This document shows positions 42,417-59,122 of a stretch of 64,000 nt of DNA, piece by piece. The stretch is taken from positions 1,815,501 through 1,879,500 of the forward strand of contig NZ_AP018795.1 in the NCBI RefSeq assembly GCF_003966655.1, given 5' to 3'. Below the pieces are notes generated by a model. It saw nothing but the letters and a program-made list of their open reading frames with translations. It made no database searches and had not been told where the DNA came from. Source of the stretch: Acidithiobacillus ferridurans (GTDB lineage Bacteria; Pseudomonadota; Gammaproteobacteria; Acidithiobacillales; Acidithiobacillaceae). A program made the position numbers and the translations under genes. Each line of letters begins with the position of its first letter. Position 1 is the stretch's first letter.

Positions 42417-42533
42417 AATAATTTGTGGATCCGGATTCCATGTCTTGAAAAGTTTTTTGCCACACCATGGTCCTTGGGCGTCGGTTGGTGCTCAAGCATA
42501 TAACCGTTGAATTCTGCTTAGGAGGTATTGGAT

Positions 42534-43118
42534 ATGCCAAGCTCGGTTACCATTCATCCGTCTGTTGATCATGGGGTCACGGCGGGATCGTCCCATTTTC
42601 ATGGCGGTACCTTACGTTGCCATTGCACCCATAACCCGGTGCTGGTGGAGGTGAAGTCGCAACTGGCCCACAATCATGCATGTGGCTGCACCAAATGCTG
42701 GAAGCCCAAAGGCGCCAAGTTTTCGGTGGTTGGGGTCGTGCCCAGGGATTCGGTCACGGTGCTGGAGAACGGCGATAAACTCCATGTGGTCGATCCGAGT
42801 GCGGTGATTCAGCGCCACGCGTGCAAGGCCTGCGGCGTTCACCTGTTTGGCCGCATTGAAAATAAAGACCACGCGTTTTATGGTCTGGACTTCGTTCACT
42901 CCGAACTGTCGCCGGAGAAGGGCTGGGCGGCCCCCGAATTCGCGGCTTTCGTCTCGTCGGTCATTGAAGGCGGTATGGCGGCACCGTCGGAAATGGCGGG
43001 AATCCGCGCGCGGCTGACGGAACTGGGACTGGCGCCCTATGACTGCCTGTCGCCACCGCTGATGGATGCGTTGGCTACCCACGCCGCCAAGCAAAAAGGT
43101 GTGCTCAAGGAAGCCTGA
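42534..43118 (+). CDS. gfa: S-(hydroxymethyl)glutathione synthase (glutathione-dependent formaldehyde-activating enzyme)
   Basis: Gfa speeds the condensation of formaldehyde with glutathione. The 194-residue zinc protein shows CHCTHNP, the CGCTKCWKP cluster and [31 protein letters not shown] 42534 follows AGGAGG with an 8-base gap. It heads the operon gfa-adhC-fghA under the sigma-54 promoter at 42401. Confidence 0.94.
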
Positions 43119-43214
43119 TGATATCGCGGATCCGCCCCATGGTGCGCCCGACCGAAAATGCGGTGGCACCGAAGGCGGGGTTTCAGCAAAAATTCTTACC
43201 AGGAGTCTACAGTC

Positions 43215-44324
43215 ATGGATGTTCGCGCAGCAGTCGCCTTTGAGGTGGGTAAACCACTGGTCATCGAAACCGTGCAACTGGACGGTCCCAAGGAGGGTGA
43301 GGTACTGGTGGAGCTCAAGGCCACCGGCATCTGTCACACCGACCATTTCACCCTTTCCGGTGCAGATCCCGAGGGTCTGTTCCCGTGTATCCTCGGTCAT
43401 GAAGGCGCCGGGATCGTCGTCGACGTTGGCCCGGGCGTGAAGAGCGTCAAAAAGGGCGACCACGTCATTCCCTTGTATACCCCGGAATGTCGCGAATGCG
43501 AGTATTGTCTCTCGCGGAAGACCAATCTCTGTCAGAAGATTCGGACGACCCAGGGGAAGGGCCTGATGCCCGACGGGACCACGCGCTTTTCATTCAAAGG
43601 CAGGCCGTTGTTCCATTACATGGGTTGTTCGACCTTCGCCAATTATACCGTGATGCCGGAAATCGCCCTGGCCAAAATCCGGGAGGATGCCCCCTTTGAC
43701 ACCAGCTGCTATATCGGCTGCGGGGTAACCACGGGCATTGGTGCCGTGGTGTTTACGGCGAAGGTGGAACCGGGTGCCAATGTAGTGGTTTTTGGGCTGG
43801 GCGGCATCGGCCTGAATGTGATTCAGGGCGCCAAACTGGTGGGCGCCAACATGATCATCGGGGTGGATATCAATCCGGCCCGGGAGGCCATAGCTCGGAA
43901 GTTCGGCATGACGCATTTCGTCAATCCGAAGGAGGTGGAAGGCGACCTCGTATCGCATCTGGTCGAACTGACCCATGGCGGTGCGGATTACAGCTTCGAA
44001 TGCATCGGCAACGTAAAAGTCATGCGCCAGGCGCTGGAGTGCTGTCATAAAGGCTGGGGTGTTTCCTGTATCATCGGTGTTGCCGGCGCTGGCCAGGAGA
44101 TATCGACGCGCCCCTTCCAGTTGGTTACCGGGAGGCGGTGGATCGGCAGTGCGTTCGGCGGCGCCCGGGGGCGTACCGACGTTCCGAAAATTGTCGACTG
44201 GTACATGGAGAAGAAGATCAATATCGACGACCTGATCACCCATCGTCTCAAACTGGAAGATATCAACGAAGGGTTCCATCTTCTGGAAACGGGGCAATCC
44301 ATTCGCAGCGTGGTGGTGTATTGA
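43215..44324 (+). CDS. adhC: S-(hydroxymethyl)glutathione dehydrogenase (class III alcohol dehydrogenase)
   Basis: This NAD-dependent zinc enzyme oxidises S-hydroxymethylglutathione to S-formylglutathione. The 369-residue protein has the catalytic-zinc sequences TGICHTDHFT and GHEGAGIV, the structural zinc cluster CRECEYCLSRKTNLC and the Rossmann GLGGIGL. ATG 43215 gives MDVRAAVAFEVGKPL. The stop overlaps fghA in TGATG. It lies 96 bases behind gfa. Confidence 0.95.
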   Translation: MDVRAAVAFEVGKPLVIETVQLDGPKEGEVLVELKATGICHTDHFTLSGADPEGLFPCILGHEGAGIVVDVGPGVKSVKKGDHVIPLYTPECRECEYCLSRKTNLCQKIRTTQGKGLMPDGTTRFSFKGRPLFHYMGCSTFANYTVMPEIALAKIREDAPFDTSCYIGCGVTTGIGAVVFTAKVEPGANVVVFGLGGIGLNVIQGAKLVGANMIIGVDINPAREAIARKFGMTHFVNPKEVEGDLVSHLVELTHGGADYSFECIGNVKVMRQALECCHKGWGVSCIIGVAGAGQEISTRPFQLVTGRRWIGSAFGGARGRTDVPKIVDWYMEKKINIDDLITHRLKLEDINEGFHLLETGQSIRSVVVY

Positions 44325-45178
44325 TGGCTCCGCTAGAAATACGGGAAGAGCATCGCTGCTTTGGTGGACGCATGGGTTATTATACCCATGCGTCCAGTGC
44401 CACGGGGGTATCCATGAATTTCGCGGTGTACCAGCCGCCCCAGGCGTTGGGCGGTGTCCTGGTCCCGGCCCTGTATTACCTGGCGGGGTTAACCTGCACC
44501 GAAGAAACGTTCATGATAAAGGCTGGCGCGCCGCGCTTGGCCGCTGATCTGGGGTTGATGCTGGTCGCCTGCGATACCAGTCCCCGCGGACTGAACATCC
44601 CCGGCGATTCTGATACCTGGGACTTCGGCGTGGGGGCAGGGTTTTATCTCAACGCAAGAATGCTGCCCTGGACGCGGAATTACCGGATGGGCAGTTATGT
44701 CGATCATGAGCTGCCAACCTTCATCGAAGAACATTTCCCGGCCTCTCCGGAACGCCGGGGCATTTTCGGGCACTCCATGGGCGGTCACGGGGCGCTGGTG
44801 CTCGCTTTGCGCAATCCGCAACACTGGCACTCGGTATCGGCATTCTCGCCCGTCTGTCACCCCAGCACGGTGCCCTGGGGAGAAAAAGCCTTTGGGAATT
44901 ATCTGGGACCTGATCGTGAGCAATGGCGGGAATGGGATGCCAGCATGCTGATGCGCCAGCGTCCCTATCCTGGCGAGATACTGGTGGACCAGGGGGAAGC
45001 GGATCCTTTTCTTGCGGCGCAATTGATACCGGAGGCCCTGGAGGCCGCCGCGGAGGCCTCCGGGCAACGACTCCGTCTGCGACGGCATCCGGGCTATGAT
45101 CATTCCTACTGGTTCATCCAGACCTTTGTGGAGGATCACCTCCGGCACCACGCCCTGCAACTGGGCCGTGTCGCCTGA
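44324..45178 (+). CDS. fghA: S-formylglutathione hydrolase
   Basis: This esterase-D-type serine hydrolase releases formate and glutathione. The 284-residue protein has the nucleophile elbow GHSMGGHGAL, the oxyanion region YYLAGLTCTEETFM, DTSPRG and the catalytic His in HPGYDHSYWFI. The start is coupled to adhC by a one-base overlap. The formate made would feed the oxidoreductase at 37690-39966. The gene converges on a LysR regulator. Confidence 0.95.
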   Translation: MAPLEIREEHRCFGGRMGYYTHASSATGVSMNFAVYQPPQALGGVLVPALYYLAGLTCTEETFMIKAGAPRLAADLGLMLVACDTSPRGLNIPGDSDTWDFGVGAGFYLNARMLPWTRNYRMGSYVDHELPTFIEEHFPASPERRGIFGHSMGGHGALVLALRNPQHWHSVSAFSPVCHPSTVPWGEKAFGNYLGPDREQWREWDASMLMRQRPYPGEILVDQGEADPFLAAQLIPEALEAAAEASGQRLRLRRHPGYDHSYWFIQTFVEDHLRHHALQLGRVA

Positions 45179-47675: not shown

Positions 47676-47790
47676 CGGTACCTCTGCATGAAAAGGAAGT
47701 ATGCACATAGTATATTAACTTTCTTTGCAATGACGCAAGCCGTTCCGGCGGTTTTTATATATCAACTTGTTTAATAACAATATTATTTGT

Positions 47791-47855: not shown

Positions 47856-48818
47856 ATGGCGAACGTGCTTTGGCTCCAAGGAGGAGCCTGTTCTGGAAAT
47901 ACTATGTCTTTTCTTAATGCGGAGGAGCCGAGTGCTTGCGATCTGGTGACGGATTTTGGCATCAAGGTGCTCTGGCAGCCCTCTCTCGGAGTGGAACTGG
48001 GGGACAATGTTCAGAAGTTGCTTCGGGATTGTGTGTCTGGGGCAATTCCCCTGGATATATTCGTTTTCGAGGGTACCGTGGTTAACGCCCCCAATGGTAC
48101 GGGGACCTGGAATCGCTTTGCCGGTCGTCCGATGAAAGACTGGGTGAAGGAGTTAACAGGTGCTGCCCAGTACGTGGTGGCGTTGGGAGATTGTGCGACA
48201 TGGGGGGGTATCCCGGCGACCGCCCCGAACCCCAGTGATTCTCAGGGACTTCAGTTCCTCAAAAAGCAACATGGCGGTTTCCTGGGAGCGGGCTTCAAAA
48301 GCAAAGCTGGGCTTCCTGTCATCAATATCCCCGGTTGTCCTGCCCATCCGGATTGGATCACCCAGGTACTGGTGGCAGTGGCGACAGGACGCGCCGGAGA
48401 ACTGGAACTGGATGATCTGCAGCGTCCAAAGACGTTTTTCAAGAGCTTCACCCAGACGGGATGTACCCGCAACATGCACTTTGCTTACAAGGTTTCCGCC
48501 ACGGAATTTGGGCAGAGAAAAGGCTGTCTCTTTTATGACCTGGGCTGCCGTGGCCCGATGACGCATTCACCCTGTAACCGCATTCTGTGGAACCGGCAGT
48601 CCTCGAAAACTCGTGCGGGGATGCCCTGTTTGGGTTGTACCGAGCCGGAGTTCCCTTTCTTCGATCTGGCACCAGGCAGTGTATTCAAAACCCAGACTGT
48701 GATGGGGGTGCCGAAAGACCTGCCAGAGGGTGTGGACAAGTCCGCTTATATCAAACTGACGTCAGCCGCCAAGAGTGCTTCGCCGGCCTGGGCCGAAAAA
48801 GACATCTTTGTGGTCTGA
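47856..48818 (+). CDS. hupS: uptake [NiFe]-hydrogenase small subunit, cyanobacterial/group 2a type
   Basis: This subunit carries the Fe-S relay that passes electrons from the NiFe site. The 320-residue protein starts MANVLWLQGGACSGNTMSFLNAEEP and has no Tat signal, as in cyanobacterial HupS, so the enzyme is cytoplasmic. Cluster cysteines are seen in GGACSGN, GDCATWGG, NIPGCPAHP, the central FTQTGCTR, YDLGCRGP, SPCNRILW and GMPCLGCTEPEFPF. ATG 47856 follows GAGGAGG with an 8-base gap. Confidence 0.95.
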   Translation: MANVLWLQGGACSGNTMSFLNAEEPSACDLVTDFGIKVLWQPSLGVELGDNVQKLLRDCVSGAIPLDIFVFEGTVVNAPNGTGTWNRFAGRPMKDWVKELTGAAQYVVALGDCATWGGIPATAPNPSDSQGLQFLKKQHGGFLGAGFKSKAGLPVINIPGCPAHPDWITQVLVAVATGRAGELELDDLQRPKTFFKSFTQTGCTRNMHFAYKVSATEFGQRKGCLFYDLGCRGPMTHSPCNRILWNRQSSKTRAGMPCLGCTEPEFPFFDLAPGSVFKTQTVMGVPKDLPEGVDKSAYIKLTSAAKSASPAWAEKDIFVV

Positions 48819-48868: not shown

Positions 48869-50467
48869 ATGGCAACAGCCGTACAGACACTGGATATCAG
48901 CCCGGTTGGCCGGGTGGAGGGGGATCTGGATGTACGCGTGGACATTCGGGACGGCGTTGTGGTCGAGGCCTACACGCAAGCTGAATTGTTCCGTGGCTTC
49001 GAGGTCATCTTAAGAGACAAGGACCCGCAGGCGGGGCTGGTGGTGACGCCGCGTGCCTGTGGTATTTGCGGCGCTTCGCACCTGACCTGTGCCGCCTGGG
49101 CGCTGGATACGGCATGGCAGACGGAAGTCCCGCGCAACGCCATCCTGGCCAGAAATATCGGTCAGCTTGCGGAAAGTCTGCAAAGCTTGCCGCGTCATCA
49201 TTATGGATTGTTCATGATCGATATGGTGAATGAGAACTACCGGCATGGTAAGTTCTACGATGAGGCGGTCAGGCGGTACGCTCCGTTTACGGGTACCAAT
49301 TACGAAATCGGCGTGACGATTTCCGGCAAGCCTGTGGAAATCTATGCGCTCTTCGGTGGGCAGTGGCCGCATTCCAGCTACATGGTTCCCGGCGGCGTTA
49401 TGTGCGCACCCACCTTGGCCGATGTTACCCGTTCCTGGTCCATACTGGAGTATTACCGTACCAACTGGCTGGAACCGGTATGGTTGGGGTGTTCAATGGA
49501 GCGTTATGAGCAGATCAAGTCCTATGATGATTTCATGGCGTGGCTGGACGAGCGCCCGGAACACGCTAATTCCGACCTGGGAATGTATTATCGGATCGGC
49601 GAGGATATTGGGCTGATGAAGTTTGGTGAGGGGTTGGGCAAGTACGTTTCGTGGGGCTATCTTCCCCATGAGGACCGTTACCAGCATCCGACCATTGACA
49701 CACGGCAACAGTCAGTCTTCATGAAGGGCGGGGTTTACGATGCGAGGGCCGACAAGTTTCATCCCATGGATCAGTCCTTCACCCGAGAATCGACGACCCA
49801 CGGCTGGTATGACGAAGGAAACAGTCCTGTCCATCCCTTCAACCGGAACACGAGGCCGATGCAGTCCAACGATCGGGACTTCAATGGGGCCTATACCTGG
49901 TGTACCGAAGTTGCCCATGAGCAGTTAGGGCGCATGGAAGCCGGTCCCCTATCCCGGCAATTGATCGCCGGCGGCAATCATGGCGAATCCTGGCAGCATT
50001 CTGACCCCTTCATTCTGGATGTCTACAAGAAAATGGGCCCCAGTCTGTGGTTGCGGCATTTTGCGCGGATGCATGAGGCGGTGAAGCTATATCGCCAGGC
50101 CGAACATTGTCTGCGTGAGTTCCGCCTGAACGAGCCATTCTATATCAAGCCCCGCGAACGGGATGGGCAAGGATGGGGTGCCACGGAGGCCATACGTGGC
50201 GCACTGGCACACTGGATTGAAGTAAAGGGTGGCAAGATCAGTAATTACCAGATCATTGCACCTACCACCTGGAATGTGGGTCCCCACGATGCGCAGGGTG
50301 GTCGTGGTCCCATCGAAGAGGCTTTGATTGGAACGCCTATCGCGAATCCAGCGGACCCGGTGGAGGTCGGGCATGTGGCCCGTTCGTTCGATTCCTGCCT
50401 GGTTTGTACGGTGCATGCCCATGATGCCAAGTCCGGAAAGGAGCTCGCCCGTTTCCGCACTGCCTGA
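48869..50467 (+). CDS. hupL: uptake [NiFe]-hydrogenase large subunit
   Basis: The catalytic subunit binds the NiFe(CN)2CO centre and oxidises H2. The 532-residue protein has the N-terminal cysteine pair in PRACGICGASH (C64, C67) and the C-terminal pair in DSCLVCTVH (C510, C513). Sixteen residues follow H516 and should be removed by the HupW protease after nickel insertion. GAGGAG precedes ATG 48869. The 50-base gap after hupS supports one transcript. Confidence 0.95.
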   Translation: MATAVQTLDISPVGRVEGDLDVRVDIRDGVVVEAYTQAELFRGFEVILRDKDPQAGLVVTPRACGICGASHLTCAAWALDTAWQTEVPRNAILARNIGQLAESLQSLPRHHYGLFMIDMVNENYRHGKFYDEAVRRYAPFTGTNYEIGVTISGKPVEIYALFGGQWPHSSYMVPGGVMCAPTLADVTRSWSILEYYRTNWLEPVWLGCSMERYEQIKSYDDFMAWLDERPEHANSDLGMYYRIGEDIGLMKFGEGLGKYVSWGYLPHEDRYQHPTIDTRQQSVFMKGGVYDARADKFHPMDQSFTRESTTHGWYDEGNSPVHPFNRNTRPMQSNDRDFNGAYTWCTEVAHEQLGRMEAGPLSRQLIAGGNHGESWQHSDPFILDVYKKMGPSLWLRHFARMHEAVKLYRQAEHCLREFRLNEPFYIKPRERDGQGWGATEAIRGALAHWIEVKGGKISNYQIIAPTTWNVGPHDAQGGRGPIEEALIGTPIANPADPVEVGHVARSFDSCLVCTVHAHDAKSGKELARFRTA

Positions 50468-50558: not shown

Positions 50559-50879
50559 ATGAATCACATGGCACATGAAGAGGACGCATTAAGGGCGCAA
50601 ATTGCCAGCATGCTTAAAGCAGGACTGAAGACAGAGATCACCCCATTTCCCGAAGACAGCAATGCTTTCGCGCAACTACTGCAGCGTATCCGCGAAGAGG
50701 CGGGGTCGGATCTGGAGAAGAAACTGGTGATCGGCGGTTTTACGGATTACCCCATGGGGGAAGATCAGCAGCGCTGTCAGGAGTGCATGTATTATCTCAA
50801 CCACCGCCGCTGGTGCGACCTGCCGGAACTGGACGTTCCGGTAGAGCCGGACTGGTGGTGCCGCCTGTGGCGTATCTAG
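50559..50879 (+). CDS. small four-cysteine HiPIP-like protein A
   Basis: The 106-residue protein has a helical N-terminal half. Its C-terminal segment has C73, C76, C86 and C101 (spacing C-x2-C-x9-C-x14-C) inside CQECMYYLNHRRWC and PDWWCRLWRI. The layout CxxCxxY...CxLP...WxC resembles a shortened high-potential iron-sulfur protein, but no signal peptide is present. The gene following it is a paralogue. An electron carrier for the hydrogenase is the inferred role. Confidence 0.7.
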   Translation: MNHMAHEEDALRAQIASMLKAGLKTEITPFPEDSNAFAQLLQRIREEAGSDLEKKLVIGGFTDYPMGEDQQRCQECMYYLNHRRWCDLPELDVPVEPDWWCRLWRI

Positions 50880-50897
50880 GCAAGGAGGTATCTGGAC

Positions 50898-51230
50898 ATG
50901 CAGACCATGGAAGAATTCCCGGAGGACGCGCCGATACGTGCGCGGCTGGAAAAATTGCTGCTCGCTGGCCTGCCTACCGAAGCGGAACCGCGTGCGTACG
51001 ACCTGGAAATGCAACAGTCGGTGCTGACGCGTTTGCAAAAGATACCGGCGGAAGATATCGCAGAACGTATCGCGATAGCCGGGTTCACGCTGCATCCTTA
51101 TGCATCTGAGGGGATTGAGGAAGCGTGCGAAACGTGCATGTATTTTCTATCGCACCGGCAGTTCTGTGCGCTTCCTGAATTAATGTTACCGGTCAGGCCC
51201 GAATGGTCCTGTCGGTTGTGGAGAATTTAG
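50898..51230 (+). CDS. small four-cysteine HiPIP-like protein B
   Basis: The 110-residue paralogue of the preceding gene has C77, C80, C90 and C105 with identical spacing, and it shares CMYFLSHRQFC, LPEL, PV, W and the terminus CRLWRI. The N-terminal halves differ much more than the cysteine parts. AAGGAGG precedes ATG 50898. It is 2 bases upstream of hupW, so it is an integral operon member. Cofactor not proven. Confidence 0.7.
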   Translation: MQTMEEFPEDAPIRARLEKLLLAGLPTEAEPRAYDLEMQQSVLTRLQKIPAEDIAERIAIAGFTLHPYASEGIEEACETCMYFLSHRQFCALPELMLPVRPEWSCRLWRI

Positions 51231-51232
51231 TC

Positions 51233-51706
51233 ATGCGTGTGGTGCTGGGATGCGGTAACTTGTACCGACGCGATGACGGAGTGGGTATCACGGTTATTCA
51301 GCGACTGCGGGGCGCGCTGGATCCCCTGCCCGCAGATATCGCCCTCCATGATGCGGGCACTTCCGGCATGGACGTGATTTTTAAGGCCCGCGATTGTCGG
51401 CAACTTATCATTGTGGATGCGTGCCGGACGGGCAGCGATCCGGGAGCGGTGTTCAGGTTGCCTGGCAGCGAGCTGGAATTGCCTCATACCCCGACCCTCA
51501 CATTGCACGACTTTCGCTGGGAACATGCGCTTTATGCCGGAAAGCGCATGTTTGGGGAGCGATTTCCCGAGCGAGTAACCGTCTTTTTGGTAGAGGGTAC
51601 TGATTTCGGTTTTGGCGACGGGCTCACACCACCCGTGGAGAGAGCGATCCCCGCAGTGTTAGCCCAGGTGAAAGCAGCGCTGGTCGAGCTGGAAACAGTC
51701 TCATGA
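51233..51706 (+). CDS. hupW: hydrogenase maturation protease HupW
   Basis: The 157-residue HycI-type endopeptidase should cut the HupL C-terminal tail. It has VVLGCGNLYRRDDGVG (metal-sensing Asp), HDAGTSGMDV and IIVDACRTGSDPG. The HycI family glutamate is replaced by Asp within the RRDDG loop. ATG 51233 lies 2 bases after the preceding stop. The stop overlaps the next gene by 4 bases. Confidence 0.93.
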   Translation: MRVVLGCGNLYRRDDGVGITVIQRLRGALDPLPADIALHDAGTSGMDVIFKARDCRQLIIVDACRTGSDPGAVFRLPGSELELPHTPTLTLHDFRWEHALYAGKRMFGERFPERVTVFLVEGTDFGFGDGLTPPVERAIPAVLAQVKAALVELETVS

Positions 51707-53136: not shown

Positions 53137-53364
53137 ATGTCGGCACTGAACGCGTTCGACGGTCAACAGGTACAGGCGATCGTCATTCTATGGATTTTGC
53201 TGGGTGGATTGGTCGGAGTGTTGGCGGGGGCTGTGTCGGGGATGCTGATCGGCGGCAAAAAGCTGGGCGATTACAAATTGGCGGCAATGATGGGGGGCAT
53301 GTATGCGGTGATGCCCGTCATTCCCGGCGTGGTCTTGGGTACGATTATCCTTGTACTGATCTGA
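53137..53364 (+). CDS. small two-helix membrane protein A
   Basis: The 75-residue protein has two hydrophobic helices (about 15-37 and 50-75) joined by GGKKLGDYK. Glycine-rich packing (LLGGLVGVLAGAVSGMLIGG) suggests helix-helix association. The family is not recognised. It is followed 31 bases later by a second small membrane protein, and the pair could anchor the cytoplasmic hydrogenase to the membrane. Confidence 0.72.
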   Translation: MSALNAFDGQQVQAIVILWILLGGLVGVLAGAVSGMLIGGKKLGDYKLAAMMGGMYAVMPVIPGVVLGTIILVLI

Positions 53365-53395: not shown

Positions 53396-53620
53396 ATGTG
53401 GGACATGATATGGAACTCGGCAGGATTGTTCCTGCGCGGAAAGCTGTTCAAAGATACCCGGCTGGTTCTGATGCTGCTGGCGGCCAACATCATCTTGGCT
53501 GCTGTGGTCGTCGTTGCCGGACATTTAGCCGGCATTCCGTATCTGGTGGATTGTCTGGTTGCTGGCCTCCTGTGTGGCGCCCTGCAACCCATCCTTTTTT
53601 TGAATTTGAAGTACGCATGA
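53396..53620 (+). CDS. small two-helix membrane protein B
   Basis: The 74-residue protein has an amphipathic N-terminus (MWDMIWNSAGLFLRGKLF) and two hydrophobic segments (about 23-43 and 50-70). It is not obviously a paralogue of the preceding gene. AAAGGAGGA lies upstream. The next gene begins 1 base after its stop, so translation is tightly linked. Confidence 0.72.
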   Translation: MWDMIWNSAGLFLRGKLFKDTRLVLMLLAANIILAAVVVVAGHLAGIPYLVDCLVAGLLCGALQPILFLNLKYA

Positions 53621-53621
53621 C

Positions 53622-54527
53622 ATGGCGACGTCACCCGTGCCTGAGGACATTGAAAGCAGGGAAGCAGATACCCTGACGGAAGATATCGCCCGATTGGGCA
53701 GCCTCGAAAAAATCATACAGGGATGGGATGAAACACAGCAAAGAACGGTGCTGGCACTGCGCAATGGCTGGGAGGCGATTTACAGGGAATGTTTGCGGCG
53801 TCTTATTCGTACCGTGCAGAATGCCCCACAGGGGGCCACCGGCTTGCGGGAAGCTGCAGCAGATCCGTATGTCTATGCGGTGCTGCGGACCCTGAGTCTG
53901 GTTCGGCCCTCCCTGCAGGAACGCATCGAAGCGGCGCTGGATAGTGTGCGGCCAGGTCTGGAAGGCCATGGCGGCAATGTCGAACTGGTCGAACTGCGTC
54001 CGCCCGATACTGTAGTTTTGCGCTTGCTGGGGTCTTGTCACGGTTGCCCATCTTCCTCACTGACCCTGTCGGAAGGGGTGGAGAAAGCAATCCGCGAGGC
54101 CTGCCCGGAAATATGTCATATTGAAACGGTAGGTCGTCAACATGCCGCCACCGCGCCGATCGGCGAAGGAACTGAACAGCGTATCAGCCCCTTCGCCATT
54201 GGCGGGCGTCATCCCTGGCTGCCGGCCCTGCGGCTGGAGGACCTGCCGCGAAATAGCCTGCTCGCTCGGGAGGTCCTTTCCGACGCCCTGCTGTTCTGGC
54301 GCGATCCCGAAGGAGATGTGCACTGTTACCGCAATGCCTGCGCCCATCTGGGTATGCCTCTTGATGAGGGAGAGATAGATCCAGTCGGTGTTCTGACTTG
54401 TCCGCATCACGGATTCCAGTTTGCGTTGGAGAGCGGAGAATGTCTGACGATACCCGAAATCCAGTTGGAGCCCTGGGCGGTGCGGATGGTCGATGGTGAG
54501 ATCCAGGTGAGGAGGAATCATGACTGA
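53622..54527 (+). CDS. NifU C-domain / Rieske fusion protein
   Basis: The 301-residue protein has a helical N-terminus, then a NifU-type domain at about 100-170 with C139-x2-C142 (GSCHGCPSS). A Rieske [2Fe-2S] domain at about 195-298 has C240-A-H242 and C260-P-H-H263. A cysteine pair in the first and His/Cys pairs in the second would give two distinct clusters. Group 2a hydrogenase loci of mycobacteria encode a Rieske-type HucE, probably the counterpart. It overlaps the NHL gene by 8 bases. Confidence 0.85.
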   Translation: MATSPVPEDIESREADTLTEDIARLGSLEKIIQGWDETQQRTVLALRNGWEAIYRECLRRLIRTVQNAPQGATGLREAAADPYVYAVLRTLSLVRPSLQERIEAALDSVRPGLEGHGGNVELVELRPPDTVVLRLLGSCHGCPSSSLTLSEGVEKAIREACPEICHIETVGRQHAATAPIGEGTEQRISPFAIGGRHPWLPALRLEDLPRNSLLAREVLSDALLFWRDPEGDVHCYRNACAHLGMPLDEGEIDPVGVLTCPHHGFQFALESGECLTIPEIQLEPWAVRMVDGEIQVRRNHD

Positions 54528-58423: not shown

Positions 58424-59122
58424 ATGATGGATCCTCTGCAGGATCTTTATCCTTTTCTGCACGGTCAGGCCAAAAATCCGCAGCGGGAAAAGACGGCGCT
58501 GCTGGAGTCCGTGCGGCAGAAATCTGCCGAAAGCCGGAATGTCAAGGCGCAGTTTTTTGCGGCGCACGCGGAGGCGCTGGTTTCCATGGCGGCGGCCCTG
58601 GCGGCGGTTTATCAGAGCGGCGGTATGCTCTATACCATGGGTAACGGCGGCTCCTCCTGTGATGCGGACCACTTGGCGGTGGAGTTCATGCACCCCGTTA
58701 CCACGGGCCGTCCGGCTCTGGCGGCGCACAGTCTGGTGAGTGACCGGGCCATGCTGACCGCCGTCGGTAATGACGTGGGTTATCAGCATGTGTTTTTACG
58801 GCAACTGACGGCCTTGGCAAGACCGGGGGATGCGCTGTTCGGCTTTTCGACCAGTGGCAACTCCGCCAATCTCATGGCCGCCTACCGCAAGGCCCGGGAA
58901 ACCGGCATGGTGACCTTCGGCCTTGCCGGCATGGAGGGGGGTGAGATGCAGGCAAGCGGCCTGGTGGACCACCTCTTGGTGGTGGCGACGGACAGCATTC
59001 ACCGTATCCAGGAATGCCACGTCACGACCTTTCACATACTCTGGGACCTGGTGCATACCATCCTGGCAGACCGGCGCGGAGACTTGCGGGCGGAGGTAAC
59101 CGAAGATGCGTTACGTGGATGA
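58424..59122 (+). CDS. SIS-domain phosphoheptose-isomerase-like protein in the hyp operon
   Basis: The 232-residue SIS protein is like GmhA: MLYTMGNGGSSCDADHLAVEFMHP, ALFGFSTSGNSANLMAAYRKARETGMVTFGLAG and a C-terminal helix with the active-site His (IQECHVTTFHILWDLVH). It lies between hypC and hypD, overlapping hypD by 17 bases. In GmhA it would isomerise sedoheptulose-7-phosphate for LPS heptose; that role is not obvious in a hydrogenase operon. An ATG 3 bases downstream is an alternative start. Confidence 0.88.
   Translation: MMDPLQDLYPFLHGQAKNPQREKTALLESVRQKSAESRNVKAQFFAAHAEALVSMAAALAAVYQSGGMLYTMGNGGSSCDADHLAVEFMHPVTTGRPALAAHSLVSDRAMLTAVGNDVGYQHVFLRQLTALARPGDALFGFSTSGNSANLMAAYRKARETGMVTFGLAGMEGGEMQASGLVDHLLVVATDSIHRIQECHVTTFHILWDLVHTILADRRGDLRAEVTEDALRG

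Follow-up and report, generated by a model that had tools for sequence, protein, structure and literature searches.

Introduction

In the literature cited here, a structure-based account of how group 2a [NiFe] hydrogenases hand electrons to the respiratory chain exists only for the mycobacterial enzyme, Huc, and it centers on HucM. The gene for HucM in M. smegmatis lies directly upstream of hucS, and its product forms a stalk that links Huc to the membrane and to menaquinone (PMC10017518). The passages describing this protein present it as a scaffold and a quinone tube and mention no cluster. We take HucM to be a DUF1641 protein (PF07849), judging from gene position in locus L122. ForE of B. 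subtilis is also a DUF1641 protein and mediates the use of menaquinone (PMC8808070). HucM and ForE serve mycobacterial Huc and a Bacillus formate dehydrogenase, respectively, as quinone-coupling subunits, each being a small extra protein encoded with an oxidoreductase that is cytoplasmic and quinone-linked but lacks its own membrane subunit. The proteins considered below resemble them in this respect.

Two further kinds of protein have been proposed to carry electrons away from these hydrogenases. HucE and HhyE, which are NifU-Rieske proteins, are iron-sulfur proteins of the same operons as the genes studied here and are proposed electron acceptors (PMC6883350). In the hup operon of A. ferrooxidans, the product of DN052_04130 was named a putative high-potential iron-sulfur protein (HiPIP), and this protein, the Rieske protein or both were considered the likely missing link to ubiquinone (PMC7735108, 2020). 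The passages of that paper devoted to this proposal name a single gene and mention neither a paralogue, nor the missing export signal, nor a spread over other bacteria, nor HucM. A Proteobacteria-associated clade of group 2a enzymes has been reported with hucE and NHL genes listed (PMC7784904), and a group 2a cluster of Methylocapsa aurea has been described (PMC12319191). The relevant passages of the latter do not name the gene studied here, nor do those of PMC9381531 and PMC12976888. Besides PMC7735108, we found no paper tying a HiPIP to a group 2a or [NiFe] hydrogenase among the open-literature matches listed.

Here we describe a pair of small genes, FS-A and FS-B, in a 64,000-nucleotide stretch of the Acidithiobacillus ferridurans genome (hereafter, the window, meaning the whole stretch of DNA that was analyzed). 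Matched by gene order, DN052_04130 would be FS-A and DN052_04125 would be FS-B; DN052_04130 shares with FS-A its operon position and the proposed link between Hup and ubiquinone. The idea of an electron exit is partly published already, as both the HiPIP assignment and the missing-link proposal are in print for one of the twins (PMC7735108). What we add is the conserved A/B pair, its complementarity to HucM, a four-gene signature and the link to one branch of HupL.

The hydrogenase operon and its twin genes

The genome containing the window is 2.92 Mb long and consists of a single contig, and its nearest named relatives are Acidithiobacillus species. Upstream of the hydrogenase genes, at 42528 to 45178, are ORFs for a Gfa-like protein, a class III alcohol dehydrogenase and an S-formylglutathione hydrolase, which we take, from the ORFs, to be a likely glutathione-dependent formaldehyde detoxification cluster. 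The hydrogenase operon itself combines, by its ORFs and their Pfam matches, a HupS without a Tat signal, HupL, a maturation protease, a NifU-Rieske protein and an NHL protein, as expected of a group 2a operon (Table 1). The group 2a label was taken from PMC7735108 and PMC7784904.

Table 1. Features of the hydrogenase operon in the window (positions are those of the window; residue numbers are those of the protein).
Feature	Position	Strand	Description and basis
HupS	47856..48818	+	Group 2a [NiFe] hydrogenase small subunit; PF01058, PF14720; likely start (ORF opens at 47787); alignment with Huc-type HupS
HupL	48869..50467	+	Large subunit; PF00374; relatives
FS-A	50559..50879	+	106 aa, putative cytoplasmic HiPIP-like protein; ORF, alignments, model, HiPIP structural matches
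FS-A layout			Helical N-terminal extension (about residues 1-48), then four-Cys domain (about 50-106); Cys 73, 76, 86, 101
FS-B	50898..51230	+	110-aa paralogue; Cys 77, 80, 90, 105; ORF, alignment, model, HiPIP structural matches
Maturation protease	51203..51706	+	Hydrogenase maturation protease; PF01750, TIGR00072; a start at 51233 would remove the overlap with FS-B
TM75	53137..53364	+	Small protein; two hydrophobic stretches seen on inspection
TM74	53396..53620	+	Another small protein; likewise two hydrophobic stretches on inspection
NifU-Rieske fusion	53622..54527	+	HucE type; PF01106, PF00355

The original prediction, made from the letters of the window, was that two adjacent small genes between hupL and its protease encode proteins with identical cysteine spacing and a shared end. 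The ORFs and their alignment bear this out. Both twins have the spacing C-x2-C-x9-C-x14-C and CRLWRI at the C-terminus, and they are flanked by HupL on one side and by the HycI/HybD-type protease on the other. At 39-41% identity (two alignments), FS-A and FS-B are paralogues. Of the residue contexts that had been likened to HiPIPs, Cys-x-Leu-Pro is present in both proteins, as is Trp-x-Cys, which reads WWC in FS-A and WSC in FS-B. Cys-x-x-Cys-x-x-Tyr was accurate for FS-A but not for FS-B, where Phe replaces Tyr (CETCMYF).

The proteins had also been predicted to lack a signal peptide. Consistent with this, the N-termini of both window proteins are charged and helical, with no RR motif or hydrophobic N-terminal stretch. 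A scan of the whole FS family for export signals flagged nine RRx motifs and four hydrophobic windows. By inspection, seven of the motifs fall ahead of the likely start, where the ORF is extended, and two lie within a helix. The only clearly membrane-like stretch belongs to the upstream ORF extension of L047_1, and the other three windows are marginal, with a mean hydropathy of 1.6-1.9.

Spread and conservation of the pair

Searching genomes of the same family gave an FS match at E 0.01 or better in 8 of 29, and six of these hold the FS pair. We discounted the other two matches (E about 0.006-0.008), each a 163-aa frame without the CxxC motif. At the level of the class, 7 of 369 genomes matched: five with the pair (including the window's), one with a broken FS-A and one with a true HiPIP. 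In a genome of one contig (G213, contig 1 near 1069482; locus L102), FS-A ends early, after RCLEL, beside a piece of HupL, and this locus probably reflects the decay of a group 2a operon.

Scanning one genome per species returned 143 relatives from 181 candidate stretches. The best 80 of the 143 were kept. Judged from record titles, these come mainly from Alpha-, Beta- and Gammaproteobacteria, and the rest include Nitrospira and two MAGs, one of Mariprofundus and one labelled Acidobacteria. Adding the window gives 81 loci and 155 FS members, there being 72 loci with two copies, eight with one and one with three. The fetched loci carry much the same gene set as the window, some being cut by contig ends. 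HupL adjoins FS in 80 of the 81 loci, the exception (L042) being cut by a contig end, and, under the distance rule applied, the protease adjoins FS in 76 (all but L020, L039, L060, L067 and L081). A GmhA-like gene (58424 to 59122 in the window; compare PMC7735108), which sits inside the hyp maturation operon, was found in 38 of the 81 loci, many of which end before it.

A FastTree phylogeny of the 155 members separated 82 A copies from 73 B copies with a split support of 0.998. The A copies are the 81 in first position plus the middle copy of the sole triple locus, and A precedes B in every locus holding both. Judged from these sequences, the A/B duplication is old and fixed. Among the eight single-copy loci, L020 is cut, L071 has a B copy with ambiguous bases, and six (L025, L026, L040, L044, L058 and L084) have no FS-B. 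The pair is therefore not always needed. All six retain FS-A, which would therefore be the essential partner.

The 2-9-14 spacing of the cysteines was read directly in 148 of the 155 members. Five of the remaining seven (L023_2, L033_2, L074_1, L085_1 and L092_1) keep it by eye, having been misparsed because an extra Cys is present; the other two are L020_1, cut at a contig end, and L060_2, with an ambiguous residue at the third Cys. Every complete member keeps the four cysteines and, read across the alignment, the four-Cys pattern shared by the twins is not chance. As a separate matter, L020 (Acidithiobacillus ferruginosus CF3 Contig248, 3604 bases) and L017 hold a second hupS-hupL-FS-A copy on a short contig. 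This copy, beside the full operon in L018, reflects either a duplicated operon or an effect of assembly or contamination.

Relation to the HupL branch and to DUF1641

We also sampled loci by HupL, so that they were not picked by FS. In the window's phylum, 9 of 397 genomes had a HupL match at 1e-90 or better: the FS pair is present in each of the four at 73-100% identity, one of which is the window's genome, and FS is absent from the five at 38-42% identity (six loci). In the phylum of Nitrospira moscoviensis, 4 of 148 genomes matched, two at 75-76% with the pair and two at 39-40% without it; one of the two carriers is N. moscoviensis itself, already found via FS. Plasmids gave the same picture, in that 31 records were HupL-like and FS occurs in all 12 of those at 72-78% identity, with no FS match in the other 19. 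In the PLSDB table, the plasmid-borne FS genes carry the label hypothetical protein. Five plasmids at 53-56% HupL identity (Runella, Thermus, Hymenobacter, Sulfobacillus and Mycobacterium) had no match to the FS profile. Across the loci read with profiles, FS was found in 7 of 7 whose HupL is at least 73% identical (including plasmid locus L127) and in 0 of 13 at 38-56%.

The original prediction had called for a comparison with other group 2a loci, and the outcome is that, in the loci sampled, FS is confined to operons whose HupL is at least 72% identical to that of the window. Across the two phyla and the plasmid records sampled, the pair is strictly linked to this one branch of group 2a (Pseudomonadota and Nitrospira).

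The complementary pattern was seen for DUF1641. A gene of this family lies near hupS in three of the five FS-less group 2a plasmids (Mycobacterium, Thermus and Sulfobacillus) and is absent from the two of Bacteroidota. Among FS-bearing genomes it was found in 1 of 35 and 2 of 43, or 3 of 77 given one shared genome, in a scan that covered the genomes of all fetched loci but seven (L020, L039, L042, L049, L057, L071 and L072) and in which many genomes were MAGs of unstated completeness. Two of these three genes are more than 400 kb from FS and the third is apparently on another contig; therefore, FS and DUF1641 share no operon in any case seen. Searching the FS loci with two queries for HucM-type proteins found none. 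Likewise, PF07849 had no match in FS-A, FS-B or 68 FS-A members (E 1), and the 25 families listed for the 65 FS-B members did not include it. The FS proteins thus differ from HucM in showing no DUF1641 match, in gene position and in a distribution near the operon that is complementary to it. They differ from HucE and HhyE as well, whose domains are unrelated and whose NifU-type genes also occur in FS-less operons: NifU family genes are annotated in three FS-less group 2a operons (Mycobacterium, Sulfobacillus and Thermus).

Two other features track the pair. TM75 and TM74 are distinct ORFs found in all 68 FS loci that have a NifU-Rieske gene and in none of the five FS-less plasmid loci. TM74 ends are strongly conserved, with the consensus LQPYLFKDLKY. 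In HupS, the stretch GCTRNMHFAYKVS is identical in 13 aligned FS-type sequences (which include those of the window and L018, near-identical throughout) and different in five FS-less ones, and the region just past it is two residues shorter than in Mycobacterium, Thermus and Sulfobacillus. By analogy with hydrogenase small subunits in general, we presume that this stretch lies near the distal cluster. Together with the residues that follow, it is a candidate docking site. Common descent alone could explain the differences in TM74/TM75 and in the HupS stretch.

Resemblance to high-potential iron-sulfur proteins

The FS proteins resemble HiPIPs (PF01355) in the arrangement C-x2-C-x(n)-C-x(n)-C, in an aromatic residue three positions past the second Cys, in C-x-[LI] at the third Cys in most members and in C-x2-W at the last Cys in many. 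They are unlike HiPIPs in falling below the family cut-off, in having no Tat or other export signal that we could see, in a helical N-terminal extension of about 48 residues, in the replacement of the Gly before the last Trp-Cys, and in being encoded as a pair inside a hydrogenase operon. Their loop between the second and third Cys, at nine residues, is also shorter than in 12 of the 13 HiPIPs compared. The last Cys is set in W-W-C-R-L-W in FS-A and W-S-C-R-L-W in FS-B, so that C-x2-W is retained in both and the HiPIP-type Trp immediately before the Cys in FS-A alone of the window pair. Both proteins fail, at the Gly, the pattern G-[WY]-C-x2-[FYW], which we take to be the PROSITE pattern for HiPIPs around the last Cys.

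Among Pfam families, HIPIP was the commonest match of FS-A members: at E 1 or better it was matched by 11 of 68, the best value being 0.039. The window's FS-A scored 13 bits against PF01355, below the gathering cut-off of 22, which no FS member is known to reach. For 65 FS-B members, the 25 families listed did not include HIPIP, and it was also absent when ten FS-B members were scanned singly. DUF2284 matched 3 of the 65 FS-B members (best 4.2e-4) and was absent among the ten scanned singly. A weak match to DUF6455 covered residues 34-86 of FS-A (E 0.037); this small four-cysteine family may be another HiPIP-like group. With NCBIfam, FS-A had no match, FS-B had only two weak unrelated ones, and there was none credible for 68 FS-A members. 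Searches of the PDB with single sequences and with profiles (the latter at E 10) returned no HiPIP and nothing significant.

Profile searches against HiPIPs, as the original prediction had suggested, favored kinship. Profile A1 was run over 369 genomes, with E calculated per genome and at most 12 candidates scored in each. Its sole non-FS match (E 7.9e-4) was a Tat-type HiPIP (PF01355 E 1e-20), and this best HiPIP match rests on one sequence. This protein, from genome G392 (contig 1 near 3124986; locus L103), is the closest true HiPIP seen and has the spacing C-x2-C-x9-C-x13-C. It matched the FS-A profile A2 at E 2.8e-4 within its genome, with all four Cys aligned in register, and is a possible link between the HiPIP and FS families. 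In 11 other genomes with curated HiPIPs, A2 had no match at E 10; therefore, most HiPIPs are too distant for the profile. When 14 HiPIPs were ranked among 9473 background ORFs, the G392 HiPIP came first with all four profiles, and the remainder ranged from rank 2 to rank 1005, one being unreported in two of the four runs.

Real HiPIPs outscored shuffled sequences in which the cysteines were held fixed. For the 14 HiPIPs, none of 300 shuffle sums reached the real summed score with either FS profile. The result was still 0 of 300 for the 13 HiPIPs that remained without the profile-picked one, where one profile gave a real sum of 39.9 (shuffle maximum -5.3) and the other 38.8 (shuffle maximum 6.5). 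Taken singly, 2 of 14 HiPIPs beat every shuffle with the FS-A profile (A2) and 1 of 14 with the FS-B profile (A3). Aligning the profiles to 13 HiPIPs with hhalign gave a real score that none of 200 column permutations keeping the Cys reached, for either profile. The hhalign probabilities were 5.6% and 18.3%, and the best local alignments span the CxxC part only. In global hhalign alignments, the FS-A cysteines were in register at a score near zero, and FS-B gave no usable alignment.

We next compared predicted structures. AlphaFold (AF2) models of FS-A and FS-B alone had pLDDT values of 89.9 and 93.9, from input alignments of 68 and 65 sequences, and the top Foldseek match was a HiPIP for both twins (E 3.4 for FS-A and 0.24 for FS-B). 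With VIA, 30 chains were aligned to the FS-A model and 28 to the FS-B model. All 13 entries with Z of at least 2 for FS-A were HiPIPs, the best having Z 5.0 and an rmsd of 4.9 over 66 residues, and so were all nine for FS-B, the best having Z 5.4 and an rmsd of 2.9 over 64. All VIA HiPIP matches had Z of 4.0-5.4 and rmsd of 2.2-4.9 A over 53-66 residues. Since these Z values are low, the fold match is supportive but short of proof, and the Foldseek E and Z alone could be chance.

The proposed resemblance to HiPIPs therefore survives as remote homology and predicted fold, but not as membership of the Pfam HIPIP family (13 versus 22 bits), an export signal or the Gly of G-W-C. On alignments and models taken together, the FS proteins may be described as remote HiPIP homologues with a helical N-terminal extension, outside the Pfam family as defined, and we regard this assignment as supported but remote. 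As for HiPIPs elsewhere in these bacteria, a search for PF01355 at E 0.001 in the genome containing the window gave no match, whereas A. ferrooxidans has iro (PMC2621215).

Proposed function and alternatives

We lean, by a small measure, toward the view that the FS pair are cytoplasmic HiPIP-like relays that carry electrons from HupS to quinone in place of HucM. Each protein would consist of the helical extension followed by a HiPIP-like domain with, most likely, a single [4Fe-4S] cluster bound by its four cysteines. The proteins would dock on HupSL near the distal cluster of HupS. The direction of electron flow and the order of carriers would be from H2 to the NiFe site, the HupS clusters, FS-A and/or FS-B, and finally quinone as the acceptor at the membrane. 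TM74 and TM75 probably join the relay, as a possible docking site at the membrane. In this branch of group 2a, the pair would do the job of the cluster-free HucM in mycobacterial Huc.

The original prediction had suggested that the twins are the missing electron exit of this hydrogenase. This is plausible and the best reading, favored by the strict link to the HupL branch and by the lack of a HucM-type gene nearby in the genomes scanned, with maturation, discussed below, as the main competing reading. Expression in A. ferrooxidans is in keeping with it: during growth on H2 and Fe(III), DN052_04125-04130 are induced and the product of DN052_04130 is raised (PMC7735108). Against it, Hup of that bacterium was purified as two subunits (PMC7735108). 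The FS proteins are therefore seemingly not tightly bound to the enzyme. Known HiPIP couples are high-potential, a property suited to ubiquinone or higher acceptors, although energy would be wasted. More specifically, the pair and the two tiny membrane proteins could form a four-gene exit module, from H2 to ubiquinone, that replaced the quinone stalk HucM in one branch; we put this forward tentatively, as it is doubtful at present.

The chief rival is that FS-A and FS-B are small iron-sulfur proteins acting as maturation or protection factors, assembling or protecting the HupS clusters in air without carrying respiratory current, in a role like that of the rubredoxin-related protein HoxR in Ralstonia. 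Genomic association cannot separate electron transfer from maturation, and the FS genes directly precede the maturation protease and P107 and encode proteins with no export signal. The two-subunit composition of the purified enzyme (PMC7735108) would also suit such factors, and the same alternative was discussed for HucE with reference to a maturation protein of R. eutropha that is related to rubredoxin (PMC6883350). However, five group 2a plasmid loci lack FS although each carries a protease and hyp-type genes, the FS genes are complementary to a DUF1641 gene near the operon, and proteins with the HiPIP fold are known to carry electrons. Overall, we find a role in maturation or protection unlikely, although it deserves more weight than the two readings that follow.

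A structural role is less probable again. The pair might be a scaffold that ties HupSL to the membrane or builds an oligomer, any metal being structural, much as HucM, which the FS genes seemingly replaced, scaffolds the Huc oligomer (PMC10017518). Both the helical N-terminal extension and the membrane-type TM74 and TM75 genes of the same operons would fit a scaffold, but every complete member has four cysteines and the resemblance is HiPIP-specific beyond the cysteines, making this improbable. Least convincing is that the cysteines bind zinc in a zinc-knuckle-like adaptor unrelated to HiPIPs, for although the fold scores are low and 65 FS-B members include weak Pfam matches to zf-LITAF-like (two, best 0.11) and DUF2284 (the three above), all structural matches at Z of at least 2 are HiPIPs, the sequence controls favor HiPIPs, and two single cysteines 14 apart are a spacing unlike that of a zinc ribbon, so that we consider it very improbable.

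Implications

The enzymes of this branch in Proteobacteria and Nitrospira, which include consumers of atmospheric H2, have operons with no HucM-type gene seen nearby. For these enzymes, the FS pair offers two small soluble candidates for the electron exit, along with a prediction of their fold and cofactor. If the relay from HupS to quinone is true, HiPIP-type clusters would operate in the cytoplasm, and the same catalytic core would be coupled to quinone in two different ways. If the four-gene module is also true, the twins would be, to our knowledge, the first pair of cytoplasmic HiPIP-type proteins to have a defined role, and the module would be a second, independent coupling of a soluble hydrogenase to the quinone pool.
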